64,000 bases of DNA. Source: Bradyrhizobium sp. U87765 SZCCT0048 (GTDB lineage Bacteria > Pseudomonadota > Alphaproteobacteria > Rhizobiales > Xanthobacteraceae). The notes beneath the pieces were generated by a model. It had not been told where the DNA came from and made no database searches. It saw only the letters and a list, made by a program, of their open reading frames with translations. The translations under genes were made by a program, and so were the position numbers. Where the stretch lies: assembly GCF_018131225.1 (NCBI RefSeq), contig NZ_JAFCMM010000004.1:372001-436000 (forward strand), read 5' to 3'. Below are positions 321 through 14,043 of this stretch, piece by piece; the stretch's first letter is position 1; every line of letters starts with the position of its first letter.

Positions 321-3300
321 ATGGCGAAGAAGAAAGCACAAGCGACGCAACCGATCGCCCCCGCTGTTCGCGAGGAGAATCCAGTTTGGCTGATAGAAGA
401 GCCGACTGGCCCGCGGTCAACGCCGCCTGTGACAACGCTGATGCCGACCCTAAACTTTCTTGAGCTCGGTTGGCTCGATTTCGAACGTCTGTGTCGTCGT
501 TTAGCGGTTCGCTCGGGCGACGTTGTGGCGTCCTGGGCCTATGGAAGTCAGGGGCACACACAGCTCGGCATCGACATCCTCGTCCGCAAGAAAGATGGAT
601 CGTTCGAAGCATGGCAAAGCAAGCGGCATCAGTCGTTCGGTCCTGCAGATGTTCGCAAGGCTATCAAAGTTTTCCTTGAAGCCGATTGGGCCAAGGAAGC
701 GAAGCGTTTCGTGCTAGCAGTCGCTTGCGCGCCGACGCCGGGTGTGATCGACGAGCTGGAAAAAGCGCGAACACAACTCACCGCCAAGAATATCACATTC
801 GAACCCCAATTTATCGAGGAGTTGACCGATCGCCTACGGCCAGAGCCCGAGATCGTCCATGACTTCTTTTCGCGTGAATGGGTCGCGGTGATTTGCGGGC
901 CGGAACGCGCCGCATTGCTCAAGGACCGCCTATCTCGGTTTGACATCGCCGATATTCGGGAACGATTGCGCGATCTCTACAGCACGTGGATTGCGACCGT
1001 CGATCCCGGCTTACCACTTGCGGGCCACGACCTCGATGGCCAGCCAATCCCAACGCCGCGGCTAGAAAAGCGGTATGTATTGCCCGATTTGCTCGTCGGG
1101 CCGGGTGGCGTCGATACAGCGCCGCAAGACAGACCAGGCGAAGAACAGCGTAAAGCTGAGCACCGAACGGATCAGCGCGATAGTCGAACTAATGGAAACG
1201 AAGGCGCAGCTTCCGTCAGTGCGCCGACGCAACTGCGAGACCGCTTGATCTCAGTGGCACAATTCCTAACGGAAACGCCTCACGCAATCATTAGCGCAGA
1301 TGCCGGCGCTGGCAAAACGACATTTCTGCGTTACGTGGCGCTGGAGGTCCTGTCCAACACACCGATAGAAGCCGTGCGTGCCCGTTACGCTGGATTAGTG
1401 CCGGTGTGGATACCGTTCGCGTTGTGGGCGCGTATGACGGAAGATGCTGGCCAGCCGGTTACACTGGAAGACGCTGCATGTCGCTTCATCACCGCGTTGG
1501 GCGACGCTGCACTTGGCAAGGATGTGGGTAGAGCTATCACGACGGGTCGATGCGTCCTTCTCGTCGACGGCATCGACGAGGCGCGCAATCCAGCCGTTGC
1601 CGGCTCTCTCCTCGTCTCTTTGACCGTCGCTTCGGAGCGGCTCGGCGTTGGCGTGCTGGCTACGTCTCGGCCTCACGGACTCAGGGCGTTGAGCGGAATT
1701 GGCGGCAACTGGACCCGCGTGCGGCTGGCACCGCTTTCCGAACCGCAACGCGCCGCTCTGGCGTTGCTGTGGTATCGAATTCTGGAGCGTCAAGAACTTG
1801 GAGTCGCTTGCGACGAAAGCACCGTCGAAGCTGCGGCACAGCGCCGTGCCGACAACTTTGTTACAGCGTTGGCAAGAGGGTCCGGCATTGTGCGTTTGGC
1901 ACAGACACCCTTGTTCTTACTCGCGTTACTTAAGTTGCATCGCTTGGACCGGGATTTGCCACGCAATCGGTTCGACGCGAGCCGGGAAATTGTTGCGCAA
2001 TTACTCGAACATCAGCCGCGTCGCCGTGCCAAAGATGCTGCCCGCGTCGATCATCCTACGATTGACGCGCGAGTTCGCGACCGAATTTTAGGAGATTTCG
2101 CGTTTGGACTCCACTCCGGAAAGTTAAAGGGGTCGGTCGTCGACGGCGCGCTCGAACATGAAGCGATCGATCGCGCGACCAAACTTATAATCTCCCGTGG
2201 AGCAATTCTTGAGGCCGCCGAGACGCAAGCCCGTTTAGTTTTCACTTTTTCGGAAGAGTCCAGCGGACTCCTCGTCAAGAAGGCAGCCGAAACTCTTGGA
2301 TTTCTGCATCGCTCACTTCAAGAATACTTCGTCGGTCAAAGCCTGGCACAACTACCAAACGTTGAAAGAGTGGCGTTTATCAAGAGCCATGCGGCGCTGA
2401 GCAATTGGTCTGAGCCGATCCTCTACCTGCTCCATCGGGTGGAACCGGAGCACGAGGTTGGCGCTCTGGTCGAAGCGATCGCGGCAGCTGATTTTTCCGA
2501 CGCTGCAGGCAAAGTGACTCGCGATGCGCTACTCACGGCTGCGATCTTTGCCGATTTTGCACACGATGTTCCGAAAGTCCTCGCCCTTGCGCGAGAGCAA
2601 TTCACCGAGCTTGAACTATACGCGTGGGGCGAACGTCAACAGCAGCTGGTTGCCGCCGTGACCGACGGTCTGTACTCGCAATCTTTAGCAATTCAATGCT
2701 TCGACAAGATTTCCGAATGGGTACCCGACTATCACGGCTACGAGCGCGCAGGCGCAATCGCCGCAATGCTCAACTGGTCCAGACCGTCACAAACAACTGC
2801 TGTCCCAGCCCTGCTACGCGTTCTTGCCGGCGATCATGAGCACGTAAGCAGAGAGGCTGCGCACATCCTGGCCGAAATTGCCAAGGGCGATACATCGATC
2901 AAGGGTTCGATCATTGAGCTAATGAAGCGGCCGCGATCGATCGAAACCCTTCACGCAAGCTTTCTTGCATTGGGCCGAGGTTGGAGCGGCGACAGCGATG
3001 TCGGCATTTTAGCAGAGCAACTTCGCAAAAGCGCGAACCGCAGCCTACAAATCGATGCGATCCGGGTGCGAGCGGCGCGCGGGGAGACCGACTTGGTCGA
3101 CCTGGATATATTCTCCACGATCTCGTTCAATCGCGAGGGCCCCGGCATCAACGCTCCCGACCTCGTGCGGCATTTTGCAACAACGATGAGACAAGAGTTG
3201 GTCGCGCGAATCGAGCGCGCGATATCTCAAGACGATCGGCGTGGGAGTAAGCTTGGACTAGTCGGTTCTCTCGTTCTAGCGAACCCGTCGCACCCAGATA

Positions 3301-5418: not shown

Positions 5419-7896
5419 TCATCGCGGCGTCGGCAAGGTGCCCTTTCTCGGACGAGAAACTGCAATTCGCCGGCGCACGGCGTCAACTGTGCGTCTAGCA
5501 TATTGCCCGGCATCGTGATGACGCTCGTACACATTGGGTGACGACTCCAGTATGGCGGCTTCCGCGTGCGCGGGCTCCCAGCCCTGTTCCAACATCGTGG
5601 CGGCCGCGGCGAAATCAGCACGCGACTCATCACGACTACCGTCGGCCCGACGCACATCGGCCCGGCTGCGGGCGGCACGAAAAGCCTCCGCAGCAGACGC
5701 CAAATACTGTGCTCCACCCAGATCCACGGCGGCGCGCTGTCGATCTTCAGCGCGGCGGGCGCGGTAGTGTTGTTCATTATGCGCCGCGCGGGCATTTTGA
5801 TCTTGCAACTGCAAGGTAGCTCTCACTTCTAACAGGAGCTTAGGGCCGGCGGCCGCGATGTCACCGGACGCAGCGTGCAGCTTTGCAAAGGGTGCGCCAC
5901 GCTCGCTACGACGTTCTCTTTTCCGATTAGTGAACCCGGCGAGACGGCCATACTGATTCCAACTGGCAGCGCCGGGATCGCCGCCGAAGCGTCTAGAGAG
6001 TTCCCGGGCCAACTGTTGCGCTTCAACGCGGGTAATCGGGTCACCAGCCACGCGACACCAGCCATGAAATCGGCCTGGGCTCGACTCGACCTCAATGGCG
6101 AGCGGAAATCCGGCCCGCTTCATCTGCGCGACCTGGTCAGCTCTGAGGTCGTCAACAAAAACCAGTGGTGGCCGACGTTCGTCATCAAGTGCAGCGGGCC
6201 GAACAAAAATGTCGCGATCAAGCGCGTTCATGCGCTTCAGCCACGCGATGGTGCGGCTTTCCGCCAGTTGCGCGGCCGCAAATCGGCGCGTGCGCTCCGG
6301 CTTCAGGTCGGCCCGATGTTTGGGCGGAATGACCCCAACCTCGAACGCCGGGCAAGCAAACGCCTGGACTTGCCGGCGGACCTGGTCCGCGGTCGGATCG
6401 TTTTTCACAACGACCTGTGCAATCGCGGTCAGGCGCCTAAGTGACGGTGATGAAAATGGCGACATCGTGGGGCTCCTCACGGGTGCATTAAGTTCGGCAT
6501 GAAGGGCTGCAAGAGCATCCAGCTTGCGCCTCTCGCCGTCGGCCCACAGGCGCAGGGCTTCCTCTGCGGTCGCGTCGCCGGGGATCACCACGGGGGCAAG
6601 AGCGCCGACAGCAGTCGTACGGGCGACATGCCCGCGGCCCGCCCGATGGCGAGACCGATCAGCGTCCCCGGCATCGCGGCGATCACCCCGGTCACTATTG
6701 CCACCGACAATTGACTTCGACGCTGCCGTTGATCGACTTGCTTCGCGTAATTTGAGACCGACTTCGCCTGGTTGCTGACGTCGCTCACGAGGTACATCAG
6801 GCTCGTGACTCTTTTCTCCAAATTTTCGGCGGCCTGTTTCACCGCTACGGAGTGCGATGATGGCAGACTCGCCGCGGTCATCTGAACCGCGTTCAGCGAC
6901 GATTTTGCCTCGTGACTCAGGGCGCCCAGCGTATTCCGCGCCTCGGTCGTCAGCTGTGCGATCGATTGTGCGACTGGATTGAGCGTTGAGGCCAAGTTCT
7001 CGATCGCGGCTGTGTGAGTGGTCATGATCTCGATCATTTGGTCGCGCGCTTGATCCATCTCCGCCCGGATTTCTCGCCGCCTCGCATCTGCGGACGCACT
7101 CGCAAGCGATGTCGCGATCTCTTTGTTCGTCATAATTCACGCCCCTTTCTTGTAAACGGCCCCACGAATAAGCCTTGCCCAAGGTCGAGCCGCGCATTTC
7201 GACACCGTCCAAAATAAAACTTAGGCCGGCCACCCGGCCCGTGGACTGCACGTTTGGCCGAACTTCCACGCCAGCGGCCCGCAGCCGTGTGACAAAGTCG
7301 ATGAAGGTTGCGCCGCCGGAAATCGCAGCATCAACAGCTTCCTGGAGTTGCAGCCGAACACTTGGCTCGCCGCGGCCTGCTGCGCCAAGCTCTGCGGCAG
7401 ACAGGGACGCGCGGTGATCATCGCGCTTTGACGGGTCGAGAAGGTGAGAACTCTCGATCTGGGCGAGACCAAATTTCAGCTCGAGCGCGCGAACGCTCTC
7501 CTCTGCACGTTTCCAGTCCCAGTTATCGGCGACGACGGAGCCATCGGCGTTGATACGACTCGCCGCAATGTGGAGGTGGTCGCCATGAGAAAAAGCGCGC
7601 CAGTGCCGATAACCCAATGATGTTGCATGCAGTTCGGCCATAAGAGTTTGCTCAGCGAGCGATGGATGGTCGGCAGCGGTCCAGCGGAGCATGAGGTGTG
7701 AAACGGGGGCCGTGACGGTAGGACGCTGGTCGGCGAGCATTTTGAAAAGGGCCACCTGCTCGGCAGTGGTCTCGCCAGTAATTGTGCCGCCGAGATCGAT
7801 GACAGTTTCACGCTCGCGGCCGGCGGCGTCCTGAGCCGCCGATACGTACGCCAGTAGGCCGGCTGCGTCGACGCCTTTGATTATTTTGCCGATCAC
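5419..7896 (-). CDS. mobA: Relaxase-primase fusion (MobA/RepB-like)
   Basis: An 825-residue protein. Residues 1-240 are a relaxase: GLLAYVS with the candidate nicking Tyr17, VSHLMLRW near 65-72, and the metal-binding HUH-type motif SHGDHLHIAASRI with His104, His107 and His109. Residues 255-437 are a highly charged Arg/Asp/Ser-rich linker that is exactly the part overlapped by the nested gene. Residues 440-720 resemble the RepB-type primase of RSF1010-like plasmids, with FVDDL (580-584), SPGRFHGW and GFTNRKR (654-660). It would nick oriT, pilot the strand and prime replication in the recipient. It overlaps the previous gene by 4 bp (ATGA), which fixes the start. The N-terminal motif resembles MOBP-type relaxases (MIxKIIKG), whereas the fusion and nested gene recall MOBQ; which class it belongs to cannot be settled by eye. 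Confidence 0.87.
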   Translation of the reverse strand: MIGKIIKGVDAAGLLAYVSAAQDAAGRERETVIDLGGTITGETTAEQVALFKMLADQRPTVTAPVSHLMLRWTAADHPSLAEQTLMAELHATSLGYRHWRAFSHGDHLHIAASRINADGSVVADNWDWKRAEESVRALELKFGLAQIESSHLLDPSKRDDHRASLSAAELGAAGRGEPSVRLQLQEAVDAAISGGATFIDFVTRLRAAGVEVRPNVQSTGRVAGLSFILDGVEMRGSTLGKAYSWGRLQERGVNYDEQRDRDIACECVRRCEAARNPGGDGSSARPNDRDHDHSHSRDRELGLNAQSSRTIDRTADDRGAEYAGRPESRGKIVAERGSDDRGESAIIALRSGETGRRKFGEKSHEPDVPRERRQQPGEVGLKLREASRSTAASKSIVGGNSDRGDRRDAGDADRSRHRAGRGHVARTTAVGALAPVVIPGDATAEEALRLWADGERRKLDALAALHAELNAPVRSPTMSPFSSPSLRRLTAIAQVVVKNDPTADQVRRQVQAFACPAFEVGVIPPKHRADLKPERTRRFAAAQLAESRTIAWLKRMNALDRDIFVRPAALDDERRPPLVFVDDLRADQVAQMKRAGFPLAIEVESSPGRFHGWCRVAGDPITRVEAQQLARELSRRFGGDPGAASWNQYGRLAGFTNRKRERRSERGAPFAKLHAASGDIAAAGPKLLLEVRATLQLQDQNARAAHNEQHYRARRAEDRQRAAVDLGGAQYLASAAEAFRAARSRADVRRADGSRDESRADFAAAATMLEQGWEPAHAEAAILESSPNVYERHHDAGQYARRTVDAVRRRIAVSRPRKGTLPTPR
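6585..7133 (-). CDS. mobB: MobB-like membrane protein nested inside mobA
   Basis: A 182-residue ORF lying wholly within mobA in a different frame on the same strand. It is preceded by a strong Shine-Dalgarno (AAAGGGG, 8 nt before the ATG). The protein has an orderly composition: long amphipathic helices (residues about 15-140, likely coiled coil) and one clear membrane segment at about 142-164 (VAIVTGVIAAMPG, then LIGLAIG), with a basic patch QRQRRS just before it. RSF1010 mobB is nested inside mobA in the same manner, has a membrane segment, and helps the relaxosome engage the secretion channel. The opposite frame (the MobA linker) is low-complexity, which suggests that mobB coding constrains this stretch. 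Function by analogy only. Confidence 0.75.
   Translation of the reverse strand: MTNKEIATSLASASADARRREIRAEMDQARDQMIEIMTTHTAAIENLASTLNPVAQSIAQLTTEARNTLGALSHEAKSSLNAVQMTAASLPSSHSVAVKQAAENLEKRVTSLMYLVSDVSNQAKSVSNYAKQVDQRQRRSQLSVAIVTGVIAAMPGTLIGLAIGRAAGMSPVRLLSALLPPW
7142..7148 (-). promoter_or_regulatory. Shine-Dalgarno of the nested mobB-like gene
   Basis: On the minus strand the bases read AAAGGGG, 8 nt upstream of the ATG at 7133. This site sits inside the mobA coding sequence and is the main argument that the nested frame is translated. Confidence 0.65.
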
Positions 7897-8417
7897 AGAC
7901 GGGGCCCTCCCCCGTGGCCATCGTCACCCCCGGCCGAGGGCGGCCGTAGCTCGTAGGCCCCCTCTCCGTCGACGGGAACGGGGTCCGGGCTAGGCTCCTG
8001 CGAGCGTCTCGGGCGTGGCTTGAGATACTCATTGGTTGGATCGCGCCATTTGTTTTCGGCAGCCGGAGGAAGTCCCGCCGCCCGGCGACGCTCGTTCAAT
8101 GACTTTACGAGGTCATCGTAATCGCGCAGTCGCGGTTCCACTGGCTCGCGGAATGCTTGAAAAGCCGTGCGCAAGGCAGTGATTACAGTCGCGACAAAGG
8201 CAGAGTACCCGAGCAGCCAAGAAATCGCAGCGCGGGACGGCGCAATCACGGGAGGCAACATAGCGGTTTGCGGCGATCGCTGGCGCCGCTGGGTTGCCGG
8301 CCTGGGCCTGGGCTTGGGCTTCCGCTTTTGGCCGACCGTTGCCAGGAGATGCTCGTACCACTCAGCGGCGAGGCGCCACTGGTGAGCCCACCACATGGCC
8401 CGGGCGCGGCGCATCAT
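7893..8417 (-). CDS. Unknown protein of the mob operon with one membrane segment
   Basis: A 174-residue protein I do not recognise. It has an aromatic/basic N-terminus (residues 1-30), a proline/arginine/lysine-rich stretch (about 31-48), a probable membrane segment at about 63-86 (AISWLLGYSAFVATVITALR) and a polar, proline-rich and glycine-rich tail. It overlaps mobA by 4 bp (ATGA) and the upstream gene by 4 bp, so it is translated as part of the mobilisation operon. A membrane-anchored relaxosome or transfer accessory is plausible, but only from the context. Confidence 0.65.
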   Translation of the reverse strand: MMRRARAMWWAHQWRLAAEWYEHLLATVGQKRKPKPRPRPATQRRQRSPQTAMLPPVIAPSRAAISWLLGYSAFVATVITALRTAFQAFREPVEPRLRDYDDLVKSLNERRRAAGLPPAAENKWRDPTNEYLKPRPRRSQEPSPDPVPVDGEGAYELRPPSAGGDDGHGGGPRL

Positions 8418-8860
8418 GTGACCACCCGGATGCGCGGGACGATTCCGAGGCCCCCTTCAATATGCTCGGCATCGCCGCGAAGGTTCGCGACGATAAATTG
8501 GTCACAGCGAACTATCGCTGCACAGAATCTGTGGTTTCCATCGAAAATAGGCCACGGCGGGAAATATCCGTGGCCCGGAAAACCAAGGTCAACTTCGATC
8601 GGCGTCGCATCGGGATCGACAACAAGCGCGGCGATGCGCGCGATGTGTTGCCCGCGGGAAAAGCTCCAATTTTTTGCCCAATGGACCGGGGAAATATCAC
8701 CCTTGGCAATCGCCGATTCTACCTCGTCGATACAAATCTGAGCTATGGGACGGCCACATCGGTCGCCCCAAGGAGGGGTAAGGAGCGGATCGCCGATCGC
8801 GCGCAAGTTTTTGACTGGAACAGCCATCGTATCGAGCCCGACCAACTTGAATTCGATCAT
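8414..8860 (-). CDS. ParB/sulfiredoxin-fold-like protein of the mob operon
   Basis: A 148-residue protein. The C-terminal half contains IFDGNHRFCAAIVR, which resembles the nucleotide-binding box of ParB-type domains (dGxHRxxAA), followed by GDQ-like and VANLRGDAEHI segments. The N-terminal half (VPVKNLRAIGDPLLTP) also fits a short ParB-like fold. No helix-turn-helix or dimer domain follows, so it is not a full ParB. It starts by a 4-bp ATGA overlap with mobC and ends by a 4-bp overlap with the next gene. A role in DNA transfer or element regulation is inference; the family assignment rests on one motif. Confidence 0.55.
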   Translation of the reverse strand: MIEFKLVGLDTMAVPVKNLRAIGDPLLTPPWGDRCGRPIAQICIDEVESAIAKGDISPVHWAKNWSFSRGQHIARIAALVVDPDATPIEVDLGFPGHGYFPPWPIFDGNHRFCAAIVRCDQFIVANLRGDAEHIEGGLGIVPRIRVVT

Positions 8861-9249
8861 CGGCCGACCTTTGTGGCCAGCGCCGTCGAAATCGCATTCA
8901 GCTCCCGGCGCAGCGCATCAATGTCATCAGCCGGCCAACCTGGCGCGCGACCTTCATGCGCGAGTCGAGCGGCTTGATTCAGGTTATTTCCGATTTTGCC
9001 GAGATGGGTGATCACCTCAATATCGATGTGAGCAGCCGCCGCAGTAACCGCCTGACCGAGGGCCCTCCGCCGAACAAAAATGGCGACGGGCAACCGCGAT
9101 GCAGCGGCTGACGTCTGGATGGCCGTGGACTCGGCCGGGGTCACACGTAGCTTGATGACGCGTGTGCGCGGCTGGATCGCGCGCGGGCGCCCCCAGATTT
9201 TTCTCTGCGGCGCGGTTACGTTTTCAGCCTGGCCATCACTTGCGGTCAA
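8857..9249 (-). CDS. mobC: MobC-family relaxosome protein
   Basis: A 130-residue protein matching the MobC mobilisation family: a basic N-terminal arm (KIWGRPRA), a ribbon-helix-helix-like region (VIKLRVTPAESTAIQTSAAA), the step to FVRRRALG, and the family signature LGKIGNNLNQAARLAHEG near residues 80-100. MobC proteins bind oriT and help the relaxase open the strands. It is the first gene of the four-gene mobC-ParB-like-unknown-mobA operon, and the non-coding stretch just upstream carries a strong hairpin that could be oriT. Confidence 0.85.
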   Translation of the reverse strand: MTASDGQAENVTAPQRKIWGRPRAIQPRTRVIKLRVTPAESTAIQTSAAASRLPVAIFVRRRALGQAVTAAAAHIDIEVITHLGKIGNNLNQAARLAHEGRAPGWPADDIDALRRELNAISTALATKVGR

Positions 9250-9273
9250 AAAAACCTCCGATGTTTTTGAGTT

Positions 9274-9329
9274 GGCAAGCGAAGCGCGGCCGGCAAGCGT
9301 TGCTGGGGCCCGATCAGGGCACCAGCAAC
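9274..9329. other. Candidate oriT: direct repeats plus hairpin upstream of mobC
   Basis: GGCAAGCG occurs at 9274-9281 and again at 9292-9299. Overlapping its end begins an inverted repeat, GTTGCTGG (9299-9306) with CCAGCAAC (9322-9329), extended inward by GCCC/GGGC around a 5-nt loop, with one mismatch. oriT sites usually carry such an inverted repeat beside the nick site and lie next to mobC. A consensus nick sequence was not recognised, and a terminator for the upstream genes is the alternative. Confidence 0.4.
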
Positions 9330-9452
9330 ATGGCTGGCTACTTCCATCTGCTGACCTTCAAGATTGAACGTGACGACGATTGATCGCCTGCGCAATCGCG
9401 CGCGGGCGATATCAAGGGCGAGGTCAGGGCAAGAAAGGTTGAGGTGATGACG

Positions 9453-9824
9453 TCAGATATCGCTGGTCGTCGCACGCGATCGCAGCGCAGCCGTAAAAGC
9501 ACGCAATAAAATAGCTGTGAACAGTGTGGCGTGGACAAGCAATGGCCGGCGCAACTGCAGCCTCTGACCTTCGATCGGAACCAGCACAGCCAGCCACACG
9601 AGCCCGCCGCCCGCGCGGGCGGACGGCATCAATGCGAGGGTAGCGCCGCGAATGCGAGCCAGCCGGAGCGTGACGACAGCGATTTGGTCCAGGTATAGAT
9701 TCTTTTTTTGCAGGGCCCGCGAAATGCTTCGCCGCAGAATTTCAACCGAGCTGCACCGCGGTGCTCGACGCAGACGGCCGTCGGCGCAACGAATAAAAAA
9801 GGTCAACGGGCGTAACTTTAGCAT
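9453..9824 (-). CDS. Hypothetical protein, probable membrane segments
   Basis: A 123-residue ORF that I do not recognise. The N-terminal half is basic; the C-terminal half holds two hydrophobic stretches (GGGLVWLAVLVPI, about residues 72-84, and LVHATLFTAILLRAFTAAL, about 95-113). Its ATG lies only 3 nt after the stop of the preceding gene, which suggests translational coupling, and it lies on the same strand as all mobilisation genes. No family motif supports it, so it may be a chance ORF. Confidence 0.4.
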   Translation of the reverse strand: MLKLRPLTFFIRCADGRLRRAPRCSSVEILRRSISRALQKKNLYLDQIAVVTLRLARIRGATLALMPSARAGGGLVWLAVLVPIEGQRLQLRRPLLVHATLFTAILLRAFTAALRSRATTSDI

Positions 9825-9827
9825 CCA

Positions 9828-10094
9828 TCAGGGCGTCAGGAGCATCGCCCAGCCCATGGCGACTACGCCGGTTTCGTCGACAAAAGGAAATGGTCGCAAC
9901 TTAACGTCGCTGGCCGCAAATTTGGCGAGGCGCCAGGCGCTATCGGCCGCGTGAGCTGGTTCCCAGCCGCGACGAAGGGCCTCGGTGGCAACATCGATCA
10001 TTTTTTGAACAACCGGGGTGATTTTGGCCTGCTCAACGGCCGCGCCAGCGACCACGAAGGCGCGGACTACCGGTAGGCAATCAAGAATGAGCAT
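9828..10094 (-). CDS. Small hypothetical protein
   Basis: An 88-residue protein of unknown function. The first 15 residues are hydrophobic (MLILDCLPVVRAFVV), and residues 28-56 form a helix-rich stretch. The sequence EALRRGWEPAHAADSAW recalls the C-terminal part of the relaxase-primase (QGWEPAHAEAAI), so the two share a short motif. It lies between the repA block and the mob operon on the same strand and is probably co-transcribed with its neighbours. Confidence 0.55.
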   Translation of the reverse strand: MLILDCLPVVRAFVVAGAAVEQAKITPVVQKMIDVATEALRRGWEPAHAADSAWRLAKFAASDVKLRPFPFVDETGVVAMGWAMLLTP

Positions 10095-10129
10095 GATCGT
10101 TGATCCCGTCTTCTAATGGTGGTCATGGC

Positions 10130-10396
10130 TCATCCTGACGTGAGTTCGACGATACTGCCGTCTTCAAGGCGAACACCAAAGACAACATCGCCAAAGCGGT
10201 AATTGTTGTTATTGCCTTGCAGGCCGTACCCCATGTCGGGCACGACGCGGACATCGAACCATCCATCTTCGGGAGCCTGATAGGAGTACTTGCTGCTCCG
10301 CTTGATGCGGGCCACGAGCTGCTGCCTATTCTCGTTTTCAGCGTCCTCGGCGCATGCCAACCGCTCAAGTGGTCGTAGTGGTCGCACGTCTGTCAT
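10130..10396 (-). CDS. Small hypothetical protein
   Basis: An 88-residue protein of unknown function. The Shine-Dalgarno GGAGGA lies 6 nt before the ATG at 10396 and decides the start over upstream TTG/GTG codons. The sequence is polar, with a mid region GWFDVRVVPDMGYGLQGNNNNYRFGDVVFGV that reads like a small beta-rich domain. It sits downstream of the repA-like gene, separated from it by the hairpin region. Confidence 0.6.
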   Translation of the reverse strand: MTDVRPLRPLERLACAEDAENENRQQLVARIKRSSKYSYQAPEDGWFDVRVVPDMGYGLQGNNNNYRFGDVVFGVRLEDGSIVELTSG

Positions 10397-10542
10397 CACC
10401 AATCCTCCAACACTTTAATGAAGCCACATAATCAAACACTCGGGCTTCGGCAGCAACTGCACACGGTCCGCACCCTTTTCCGGCCTCTTAACAGGGCCCC
10501 GCTTCTTTTTTCCGCGCCGCGCGGCGGCGCGGCTTCGTGGAT

Positions 10543-10676: not shown

Positions 10677-11846
10677 TCAAACGGCAACCCCGGCGACGAC
10701 ATACTTTCTCTTGACGCGGCCCTTGTCCTCTTTTTCCACGACCCGCAACACGTCGTTTTCGATCCACTTTGCCACGATTGACTTCACCATGCCCCGCCCC
10801 GCAACATCGCCAAGGTCGATACCGATGACGTCGGCAACGATAATTCCCACCCATGCTGCAGACTGCGCGTCCCGTCGGGCCGCGCCGGCGGCTACGCGTT
10901 TCTGTACCTCGCGTAGATGGTGGATGGTCACTTCGCTAAATGGGTCTGGCCGCTTCCATTCCTCCACCACAGCGACGTGATCCGACTGCCTTTCTTCGGT
11001 CGAGTTGCCGAGGTCCACGCTGGTCAGGCGGTGCCATCGCGCCGCCTCGAGCGGGGCTAAGTTAGCCTTCCCGTCGTCGACACGAAAATATGAGCGCGGC
11101 TGATCGACACCGAATTTCTCGGCTTCTTTCTTTGTCATTGTATTGATCACTCGGACCGACCTGGCGGCAGCGACAAGTGCACCAGCCCCCCGCGCGTCAT
11201 CCGCGGTTCTATCCCCGTCACCCAAGCCCTTCCGCAGGTGGTGGACGAGTTCAACAGCTGCACGGGTCGAGTCCGCTATTCGCGCCCAAGTTTTCGCTAC
11301 AGCGCCAATTTGACCATTGTCGTTTTCGTTGACCAAATGAGAGCTAATGAATGGGTCGACGGAGAAAACGTCAATTTTCCATTCAATTATCGCCGCGATC
11401 ACTGCATCAACGACGGGGCTGTGTATGAGTGCCCCGCCGGGCGCCCCGCTCGCGATGATCATTTCGCTCACTCGACCTGAATCAAGGAATAGATTTCCGG
11501 CGATTTCAATCGGATCGATGCCAAAATGCAGCATGATCGCGCCGACCCGACGCTGGAGCTCCTCAAGCGGATCCTCGCCATTCCAAACCCAAACCCGGAG
11601 CGGTTGTTGAACTTTGACACCCAACAACGGCCGCCCACTCGCCATTGCGATCGCTTCAGCGAGGATTAGGGATGATTTTCCAGCAGCGCCGGGCGCCACG
11701 GTCGCCGACAGGAAGCGGCGGATATAGTGCCGGCCATAAAGCCATTCACGCGGTGGAATTGATGAGGGATGACGCCAGACGAATGGTGAGGCTGCGATGA
11801 GCCGCTTCCGCGGCTGCGCAACAATAGCGGCAGCCTGCTCGATCAT
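10677..11846 (-). CDS. repA: RepA-like AAA ATPase/replicative helicase
   Basis: A 389-residue protein of the AAA_25/RepA type. Walker A is APGAAGKSS with Lys57; it is followed by WVWNGEDPLEELQRR (residues 86-100), typical of the family, the Walker B-like strand IDVFSVDP with Asp164, and the sensor-type stretch VELVHHLRKG. The C-terminal ~100 residues look like a winged-helix region with AAR..A..WVG and a basic end (KGRVKRKYV). RSF1010 RepA is a hexameric helicase of this class. It starts with a 4-bp overlap (ATGA) with the upstream DNA-binding gene. With the primase domain of MobA it could replicate the excised element; that is inference. Confidence 0.78.
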   Translation of the reverse strand: MIEQAAAIVAQPRKRLIAASPFVWRHPSSIPPREWLYGRHYIRRFLSATVAPGAAGKSSLILAEAIAMASGRPLLGVKVQQPLRVWVWNGEDPLEELQRRVGAIMLHFGIDPIEIAGNLFLDSGRVSEMIIASGAPGGALIHSPVVDAVIAAIIEWKIDVFSVDPFISSHLVNENDNGQIGAVAKTWARIADSTRAAVELVHHLRKGLGDGDRTADDARGAGALVAAARSVRVINTMTKKEAEKFGVDQPRSYFRVDDGKANLAPLEAARWHRLTSVDLGNSTEERQSDHVAVVEEWKRPDPFSEVTIHHLREVQKRVAAGAARRDAQSAAWVGIIVADVIGIDLGDVAGRGMVKSIVAKWIENDVLRVVEKEDKGRVKRKYVVAGVAV

Positions 11847-12181
11847 TCATCACCCCGCAGCGGCTGTGCCATCATTTCCGCTATCGAGGGCCGGCCGCGC
11901 TTCCGGCGTGGTTGCTCTGCGGTGGGCCGCTGTAGCAACGGCGATCGATGTGCAGCGACAAAAGCGTGCAAATCAGCTACTGCGAACAGTGTTCGTCGGC
12001 CAATTTTTATCTGCACCGGGCCGCGGCCACGATAACAAAGATCACGAAGCGCGCCGGGGGTTATGCCCAGCAACGCCGCAGCGCGGCGATAATCAGCTAA
12101 AATCGGATCAGCCGGAAGCGGAGCAGTGTCGGGCGCGCCTCCTGGCGCGCGGGTATGCGTTGGCATGTGCAGCCCCATCAT
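11843..12181 (-). CDS. Excisionase/helix-turn-helix DNA-binding protein
   Basis: A 112-residue protein with a winged-helix DNA-binding core at about residues 29-76: DYRRAAALLGITPGALRDLCYRG followed by a short wing with IKIGRRTLFAVADLHAFV, as in MerR/Xis-type proteins. The tail is basic (PRRKRGRPS). It may act as an excisionase or as the regulator of the downstream repA-like gene, with which it overlaps by 4 bp. The start is uncertain: in-frame ATGs occur at 12181, 12178 and 12166. A 10-bp inverted repeat about 90 bp upstream is a candidate operator. Confidence 0.7.
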   Translation of the reverse strand: MMGLHMPTHTRAPGGAPDTAPLPADPILADYRRAAALLGITPGALRDLCYRGRGPVQIKIGRRTLFAVADLHAFVAAHRSPLLQRPTAEQPRRKRGRPSIAEMMAQPLRGDE

Positions 12182-12300: not shown

Positions 12301-12790
12301 TGAAAAAGCTCACCCGATAACCGAAAAATGTCAACGCTGACAGTCTCGCAGGGCTGTGGATTGTGTGCCTGCGTCGCAGATCATCGCTCTCCGCCGTCGC
12401 CTAAGCGGCCTGAGCAGGGCCTTTCGCTCGGTCAATCTGCCTCAGACCGTGGCCTTCGCCGAATGAGTACCCCGCAAGAGTGCCACCGGTTGGCTCAGGC
12501 GACTTTGCGGACGGGAATTGCCTGTTCAACGCTGAGAACGGCTCTTTGACGACGACAGGGGCATTCGTGGCCATGATGTCAATTAGTGATTAACGTTGTT
12601 TGCACTGAAGAATTGTATCTCCAGCCGTCTCTAGGATAGTTGAGTTGTTCAGATATGCGAGCGGCCCCTCCTTCCGCTCGTTTTGACCCCACCCGGGGTG
12701 GTTGGAGACGCAACGCTCTGGTGTGTCCGGAGCGGGAGCGCACTGCAACCTGTGCCGCCCAGCACGCGCGGTGAACATAAGGAGGACTAC
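12301..12790. other. Non-coding stretch, element right end
   Basis: I find no gene that I can support in these 490 bases. Short ORFs exist but have no ribosome binding site or recognisable composition. The part just before 12791 should hold the promoter of the following plus-strand gene. Confidence 0.4.
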
Positions 12791-13174
12791 ATGCTTACGA
12801 TCGCCCCCCCAACGAAAGGCTCGAAGCGTCCGCTGTTGTGTCAGCCGATGGGAGAGTTTGAGCCCCTCCCTGCGTACATCGAGCTCGGCCTGAAGCATCG
12901 TGTGGTCAATTTTACCTACTGGGAGCGGAACACCGAACCGCTGTACGTCACGCTCGGACATGCGCGCCGGTGGCGAATAAATGCTATGACGTCTCGGCGC
13001 GCAGCGATCAGGCTCGCAAAAGAACTTGAGCCGCTGTTCGAGCGATTGTGCGATGGCTATGCGGTAGACTGGAATGGACGCCATCTCGTAGGCGTGCTCG
13101 ATGCTCACGCTCAAACAGCGGCAGAGGAAGTGTCAGCACGGCTAAAAGAATACCTATGGCCCGAAGCTGTATGA
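12791..13174 (+). CDS. Hypothetical protein near the element's right end
   Basis: A 127-residue protein I do not recognise. The Shine-Dalgarno AAGGAGG at 12779-12785, 5 nt before the ATG, makes the start clear and rules out the longer upstream frame. The protein is mixed alpha/beta in look, with aromatic-rich NFTYWERNTEPLYVTLGHARRWRINAMTS in the middle and a helical C-terminus. It is the last gene before the attachment site and the only plus-strand gene of the element besides the NACHT gene. Confidence 0.65.
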   Translation: MLTIAPPTKGSKRPLLCQPMGEFEPLPAYIELGLKHRVVNFTYWERNTEPLYVTLGHARRWRINAMTSRRAAIRLAKELEPLFERLCDGYAVDWNGRHLVGVLDAHAQTAAEEVSARLKEYLWPEAV

Positions 13175-13490
13175 GGCCACCCCGCCGGCCGCAGAACACA
13201 GCACATGCGCGCGCCAGCGAGCGCGCGCAATCTCGGCTCCAGCGAAGCCGCGACAATCCTTTTCGACTTGTGACCAGCGCCGTCGCCGTTGCACGACAGG
13301 CGTAGCGCCGGTCGCCGACCGTTAAGCATCATCGCTCGTGATCGCTGACGATCAGAACTGCATCAGAGACGTGATTTTAGCTGGCACAATTTTGGCACAG
13401 TAAGGGGCGACTTTTAGCGATAATCCGCGACCCAGAGCGATGATAAGTTATTGATTTTTCTTGCTTTAAACTCTGAAATAAGTGTTTTTA
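13175..13490. other. Attachment-site flank with direct repeats
   Basis: There is no supportable gene here. TGGCACA occurs at 13382-13388 and 13393-13399, 11 bp apart (one helical turn), about 100 bp from the tRNA fragment; such tandem motifs beside a tRNA att site can be arm-type binding sites for a tyrosine integrase. The stretch becomes notably AT-rich from 13440 to 13490. Confidence 0.4.
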
Positions 13491-13540
13491 TTGCCCTCCG
13501 AAGGCAAAGGTCACACGTTCGAATCGTGTCGGGTGCGCCA
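13491..13540 (+). other. attR-type site: 3' part of tRNA-Arg(CCG)
   Basis: Folding by eye gives an anticodon arm TTGCC-CTCCGAA-GGCAA (anticodon CCG), AGGTC, a T-arm ACACG-TTCGAAT-CGTGT, the acceptor 3' strand CGGGTGC, a discriminator G and an encoded CCA. No D-arm or acceptor 5' strand (GCACCCG) precedes it: the upstream bases are AT-rich element DNA. It is therefore the displaced 3' portion of a tRNA gene left by integration, and the intact tRNA should lie at the other end of the element, left of the window. The short T-run after CCA was the original tRNA's downstream sequence. Confidence 0.85.
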
Positions 13541-13635
13541 TTTTTGCCTGTCTGCCAACGCGATAACTGAAGCACCTGGTTGCGCGCGCTCAGCGGCTGG
13601 CTACCGATCCGGTTTCGCAATCCGCCCTGGTCACG

Positions 13636-14043
13636 TCACGATGTCGGGTAGTCCCAGATATCGGCGGGCAGCTTGTCCTTGAGCGAGGCGTACATGGCAT
13701 CGCGGAACAGTTTCACCGCTGGATAGGGGCGAAGGGCAATCGTGCGCTCCACGATCAGCCCCTGCTCGTCATCCACGATGACTTCAAGGCTCTCGATCTT
13801 GTGACCGTCCATGCTTCCTTCCCAGCGCAAGAACGTCGTGCGGTCGTCGAGCTTGAATTCGGCCGTGTAAGCGCCCGAGCCTCGCGTAGAGCTCGATTGG
13901 GCGAAGATCGCCGCGACGACATCACGTCCCGCGATCGCCCGCACCAGAATCGGACTGTTGAATACAACGTTTTCGGCAAGCAACGCGCTTACCTGAGCGG
14001 CCGTGGCGCCACCCGTTTCTCGCAGTTTGCGCAGCGGATGCAT
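13636..14043 (-). CDS. NTF2/SnoaL-like protein
   Basis: A 135-residue protein with the look of an NTF2-like fold: an N-terminal helix (ALLAENVVFNSPILVRAIAGRDVVAAIF), then beta strands alternating with aromatic residues (RTTFLRWEGSMDGHKIESLEVIVDDEQGLIVERTIALRPYPAVKLF). Members are small enzymes (cyclases, isomerases) or binding modules; no catalytic residue can be named here. It is the first chromosomal gene beside the element and lies 76 bp downstream of iorB on the same strand. Family call moderate, function unknown. Confidence 0.65.
   Translation of the reverse strand: MHPLRKLRETGGATAAQVSALLAENVVFNSPILVRAIAGRDVVAAIFAQSSSTRGSGAYTAEFKLDDRTTFLRWEGSMDGHKIESLEVIVDDEQGLIVERTIALRPYPAVKLFRDAMYASLKDKLPADIWDYPTS

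Follow-up and report, generated by a model that had tools for sequence, protein, structure and literature searches.

The window analysed here, a stretch of 64,000 nucleotides from Bradyrhizobium sp. U87765 SZCCT0048, carries a mobilization locus whose features are listed in Table 1. Its central gene, mobA-repB, encodes a protein matching the Pfam families Relaxase (E=3.5e-10) and RepB primase N-terminal (3e-17) and C-terminal (9.6e-13), and a shorter ORF in another frame lies inside it. The MobC/NikA-like gene and the two small-protein genes share the strand of mobA and are linked by 4-bp overlaps. For comparison we used locus L027, the same element in a same-genus genome, with a relaxase 83% identical. 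The small, likely transmembrane protein encoded next to mobA is conserved in L027. A separate RepB' primase made from an internal start appears possible from the sequence, and GAGGG...ATG is found in L027 at the place of the window RepB' start.

Table 1. Features of the mobilization locus, in window positions
Feature	Position	Strand	Remarks
NACHT-domain STAND-type protein, 1665 aa	279..5276	+	Cargo; no comparable ORF in the L027 element
mobA-repB	5419..7896	-	825 codons; Relaxase residues 35-144, mobB-overlapped linker codons 255-438, RepB primase N + C 579-806
Possible separate RepB' primase (MSPFSSPSLRR...)	5419..6465	-	Internal in-frame ATG, GAGGAG upstream, -8.5 kcal/mol
mobB-like nested gene	6585..7133	-	182 aa, +1 frame; helical body, C-terminal hydrophobic segment at about residues 141-164
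Shine-Dalgarno region of mobB, AAGAAAGGGGCGTGAATT	7134..7153	-	Same letters encode relaxase residues QERGVNY
174-aa protein, likely transmembrane segment	7893..8417	-	Just upstream of mobA, 4-bp overlap, same operon; no family match
148-aa protein of the mobA operon	8414..8860	-	No family match; conserved in L027
MobC/NikA-like relaxosome accessory protein	8857..9249	-	NikA-like E=2.5e-17, MobC E=5e-8
AAA_25 ATPase	10677..11846	-	PF13481 E=8.5e-34
HTH_17 excisionase/regulator-like protein	11843..12181	-	Family match
Right attachment repeat, 45 bp	13496..13540	.	50 bp at 13491-13540 identical to the 3' end of tRNA-Arg(CCG) in L027

A 45-bp direct repeat marks each end of a stretch some 15.5 kb long (G000:C8:369996 to 385540); its left copy is situated 2 kb before the window begins (G000:C8:369996-370040). 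In L027 the repeat sequence at the tRNA-Arg(CCG) 3' end adjoins a tyrosine integrase, which the window genome has as well. Taken together, the direct repeats, the tRNA-Arg end, the tyrosine integrase and the mobilization genes indicate that the segment is an integrative mobilizable element, with what appears to be an IncQ-like mobilization/replication module (MobC, MobA-RepB, RepA-like ATPase); PF13481 is the Pfam family of the RSF1010-type RepA helicase (PMC12375680). No RepC initiator was recognised among the tested ORFs, the ORF lists contain no T4SS of the element's own, the IncQ-3 oriT motif is absent from the window, and positions 9240-10440 hold no convincing oriT repeat. VirB4 homologues are present elsewhere in the window genome and could be part of a helper T4SS. 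The NACHT/STAND protein is likely defence cargo; PADLOC gave no clear match for it. In locus L028, a second integrase gene (12459-13811) lies directly outside the left repeat (13996-14040), where no tRNA gene was found, which suggests two islands in tandem at one attachment site.

The nested ORF begins with an ATG at mobA codon 255 and ends with a stop in codon 438, in the +1 frame relative to mobA; its coordinates, start and offset agree with the description in an earlier sequence-only reading of a 182-residue frame entirely inside mobA. The strong Shine-Dalgarno sequence claimed there was also borne out, since the letters 5' of the start (ACAAGAAAGGGGCGTGAATT-ATG) form an anti-SD duplex of -8.2 kcal/mol, within the best 2.5% of window ATGs. 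As for length, in 55% of the synonymous-codon shuffles of mobA the +1 frame held an ORF of 182 aa or more, so that the length of the nested ORF by itself is no evidence, and we dropped it as an argument for a gene. The exact nested span was open in 7% of the shuffles, and open with the ATG in place in 4%.

It is conservation, not length, that is decisive for regarding the nested ORF as a gene. Between the window and L027, substitutions at mobA codon positions 1/2/3 number 46/17/11 inside the overlap, against 35/20/71 upstream and 31/19/103 downstream of it (Fisher p=2e-13); the span thus holds 11 third-position changes in 183 codons, the flanks 71 in 254 and 103 in 388. Position 1 of a mobA codon coincides with a nested third position, so inside the overlap it is the nested frame that is constrained. 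The sequence-only reading had predicted both raised synonymous-site conservation in mobA codons 255-437, which the scarcity of third-position changes confirms, and an open nested frame in relatives, which held: the nested ORF of L027 also has exactly 182 codons. The two nested proteins are identical at 157 of 182 residues (86%), without indels, whereas MobA identity is 68% inside the overlap compared with 83% and 89% outside. In 5000 simulations with mobA-only constraint and an equal number of substitutions, nested identity reached 126.9 +/- 3.4 residues, with a maximum of 138, and the nested frame stayed free of stops in only 15%. The nested frame is therefore under selection as a protein, far beyond chance, and the mobA frame in the overlap appears to be mainly a loosely constrained linker from relaxase to primase.

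The same position shift was seen in four of the five nested groups tested, including an IncQ-like beta/gamma set, Rhodobacterales and the pWES pair; in the fifth, Donghicola, the pattern was only flattened. In controls without a nested ORF (cyanobacterial and enterobacterial), the substitution peak stays at mobA position 3. The pooled-pair counts in these other lineages are descriptive only, as the pairs have common ancestry.

We next turn to the identity of the nested protein, which the sequence-only reading had called mobB-like. In near plasmid relatives the nested proteins hit PF17511 (Mobilization_B) at E-values of 4e-13, 4e-13 and 1e-11, and two of them are named IncQ-type MobB by NCBI. 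The window protein does not reach the PF17511 cut-off (E=0.2, 12.4 bits against 27 bits; E=0.129 within its own genome), and its other Pfam and NCBIfam matches are weak coiled-coil noise. We built a profile from 16 IncQ-like MobBs, leaving out the window protein and its sister. Against this profile the window protein scored 27.8 bits, while the best of 500 shuffles scored 9.4 and coiled-coil decoys 2.9. A similar MobB profile run on the whole 7.76-Mb genome ranked the nested ORF first (E=4.4e-5), with the next hit at 0.12. The mobB-like label is hence upheld: judged by profile, the nested ORF is a divergent MobB, its resemblance amounting to homology beyond mere analogy. The C-terminal half aligns poorly with IncQ MobB, and a core common to both reads LASTLNPVAQSIAQLTTEARNTL in the window protein and LAEQIEPLAQSMATLADEARQVM in pMS260 MobB. 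AlphaFold2 predicts helices at residues 3-89 and 92-168 with a modest mean pLDDT of 68. The hydropathy peak (Kyte-Doolittle 2.05) falls at residues 145-163, which the model renders as helix with the lowest pLDDT of the chain, below 50.

The earlier expectation that annotation would drop the nested gene was right in part. The window copy, being below the Pfam cut-off, would go unnamed, whereas close plasmid relatives have MobB annotated. In the PLSDB gene table, which is incomplete, the nested MobB is entered and the full-length mobA is missing for L019, L022, L023 and L123, so in the annotation of such loci it may be the relaxase rather than the nested gene that is dropped.

Nesting of MobB in mobA is already known from IncQ plasmids, and the window gene represents a distant, unannotated relative. 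PMC2200642 describes RSF1010 mobB as lying within mobA/repB in a different frame, with MobA, MobB and MobC essential for mobilization. MobB of R1162 is described as required for efficient mobilization and needed by the MobA transport signals (Parker and Meyer 2007, via PMC3297438). Like MobB of RSF1010, R1162 and pMS260 (PF17511), the window protein is nested in mobA-repB and has a predicted helical body with a C-terminal hydrophobic segment; as in the IncQ1 module, its gene is associated with those for a RepB primase and a RepA-type helicase. The nesting claimed to be RSF1010-like has a close counterpart in IncQ1 pMS260, whose MobB also lies in the +1 frame and starts near mobA codon 250. Unlike the 136-aa IncQ1 MobB, the window protein has 182 aa and a longer N-terminal part; its host relaxase is a MOBP-like member of Pfam Relaxase, while pMS260 is of type MOBQ; and its setting is a chromosomal integrative element instead of a plasmid. 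The C-terminal part of MobB reportedly inserts into the membrane, according to work by R. Meyer. In ColE1, the small mobilization genes mbeB and mbeD are overlapped by the MOBP relaxase gene mbeA; as far as we know, they and MobB are different protein families, and a family search gave no MbeB-family match for the window protein.

A second group of counterparts is formed by MOBP IncQ-like plasmids with a nested MobB, namely Serratia p31A16004_B_KPC, Plesiomonas pPS-MS-17-188-3, Komagataeibacter pGXY040, IncQ-3 pJF-707 and pWES-1. They share with it the relaxase family (~31-36% identity), the frame and the start offset, and the first three also have the primase fused to the relaxase. In contrast, they are replicating plasmids, and their nested proteins are only ~19-24% identical to that of the window. 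The IncQ-3 mobilization module has only mobA and mobC named (PMC7557826), yet in pJF-707, assigned to IncQ-3 in the same paper, the +1 frame of mobA holds a nested ORF of 227 aa, annotated as hypothetical, whose ATG is at locus position 3264. A nested ORF is present in the same way in pWES-1.

What is less familiar is that the host relaxase is MOBP-like, that the element is chromosomal and that the overlap is so widespread. To survey its breadth we collected plasmid and genome relatives via the relaxase, not the nested protein, and labelled all loci by one rule, an ATG-started ORF of at least 70 aa. By this rule 42 of the 88 relaxase relatives carry a nested ORF at the homologous site; among relaxase-primase fusions the figure is 19 of 20. 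One side of the relaxase tree, with 36 rows (cyanobacterial in the rows displayed), has none, and all 42 nested loci fall among the remaining 52. In most nested relatives the ATG lies at the same offset, shortly after the point where alignment to the relaxase query ends, and the letters 5' of it at the homologous place are rich in purines; their +2 frame holds nothing comparable. The sequence-only reading had counted stops in the nested frame of homologous mobA genes against a nested gene. Some homologues do lack the ORF (L018, L043, L046 and others); most of these lie outside the part of the tree with nested loci or represent scattered losses. The nested loci were assigned to Pseudomonadota, Thermodesulfobacteriota, Myxococcota, Bdellovibrionota, Bacteroidota and Bacillota, the last represented by MAG contigs. 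Searches that started from the nested protein itself yielded no plasmid match, and across 397 genomes of the order they picked up nothing beyond generic coiled-coil stretches. Single-sequence scans of genome and viral contigs gave no relatives, and when 289 genomes of the class were searched by profile, the gene was recovered from no second genome at the threshold applied. An alignment-based scan of genome contigs returned 78 loci.

The computation shows the ORF, selection on it as a protein, conservation of its start site, homology to MobB and the gene context; from these we infer the expression, topology and transfer function of MobB as follows. Ribosomes would translate mobA-repB and also initiate anew at the internal Shine-Dalgarno sequence, at 7133, yielding the 182-aa MobB. 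This protein is predicted to be long and helical, with a C-terminal hydrophobic segment that anchors it in the inner membrane. As the analogy with R1162/RSF1010 suggests, it would hold the relaxosome at the membrane and aid recognition of the relaxase by a helper type IV secretion system, thereby raising the mobilization frequency. The analogy makes a transfer role of the window MobB likely, and we are highly confident in the explanation as a whole, that is, a translated MobB gene on an integrative mobilizable element that tethers the relaxosome at the membrane for a helper T4SS.

An alternative that we regard as unlikely is a real nested gene of MobB ancestry with another present role, for example as a membrane anchor of the RepB/RepA module or in regulation of the integrated element. 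The divergence of the C-terminal half from IncQ MobB fits such a role, as does the chromosomal state of the element, where post-excision steps may be the target of selection; the nested gene is, however, strictly linked to mobA, and it also occurs in mobA without fused primase (Rhodobacterales and deltaproteobacterial-type loci), which argues for a role in transfer. Far less probable is ribosomal frameshifting from mobA into the nested frame, which would yield a relaxase-MobB fusion and no separate protein. The constraint on the nested frame and the end of the aligned relaxase part just before it would be compatible with frameshifting, but the ATG and Shine-Dalgarno sequence are conserved at one offset, in 20 fused loci the mobA frame runs on without a stop across the overlap and into the primase, and MobB of RSF1010 is described as a gene of its own (PMC2200642). 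The idea of a long ORF arisen by chance in GC-rich coding DNA, which the outcome of the synonymous shuffles would allow, is contradicted by the substitution pattern, the mobA-only simulation, the conserved start site and the profile homology to MobB, leaving it a negligible probability.

The reading as a translated MobB gene implies that the MobB overlap is no peculiarity of RSF1010 and recurs with a MOBP-like relaxase, on chromosomal elements and in several phyla. When such elements are annotated, a transfer partner is probably overlooked, or mobA is lost in favour of MobB. The aligned locus set also makes the relative age of the mobA-linker and MobB frames testable. The rest of mobA varies widely among nested loci, being primase-fused, provided with another C-terminus or very short, and mobB continues beyond the mobA stop in five loci (L036, L049, L050, L051 and L069). 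Together with the drift of the linker frame while MobB is conserved, these features would fit MobB as the older frame. We tentatively suggest, with slightly less than even confidence, that the start of mobB within the last part of the relaxase region is an old, multi-phylum trait and that mobA was later extended through mobB, for example by primase fusion, the linker being the younger, overprinted frame. The direction rests on an unrooted relaxase tree that needs seven gains or losses of the nested label.

Two further observations concern individual genomes and genes. Neptunicoccus sediminis CY02 has five copies of the relaxase locus, namely L034, L035, L036, L039 and L104; in L036 and L104 the nested ORF is shortened along with mobA, as though the two were in joint decay. 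Two Bacteroidota relaxase genes, L078 and L080, contain, at about the same place, a +1 ORF whose product is helical and ends in a membrane segment, and that of L078 matches the MobB profile with 24 bits.
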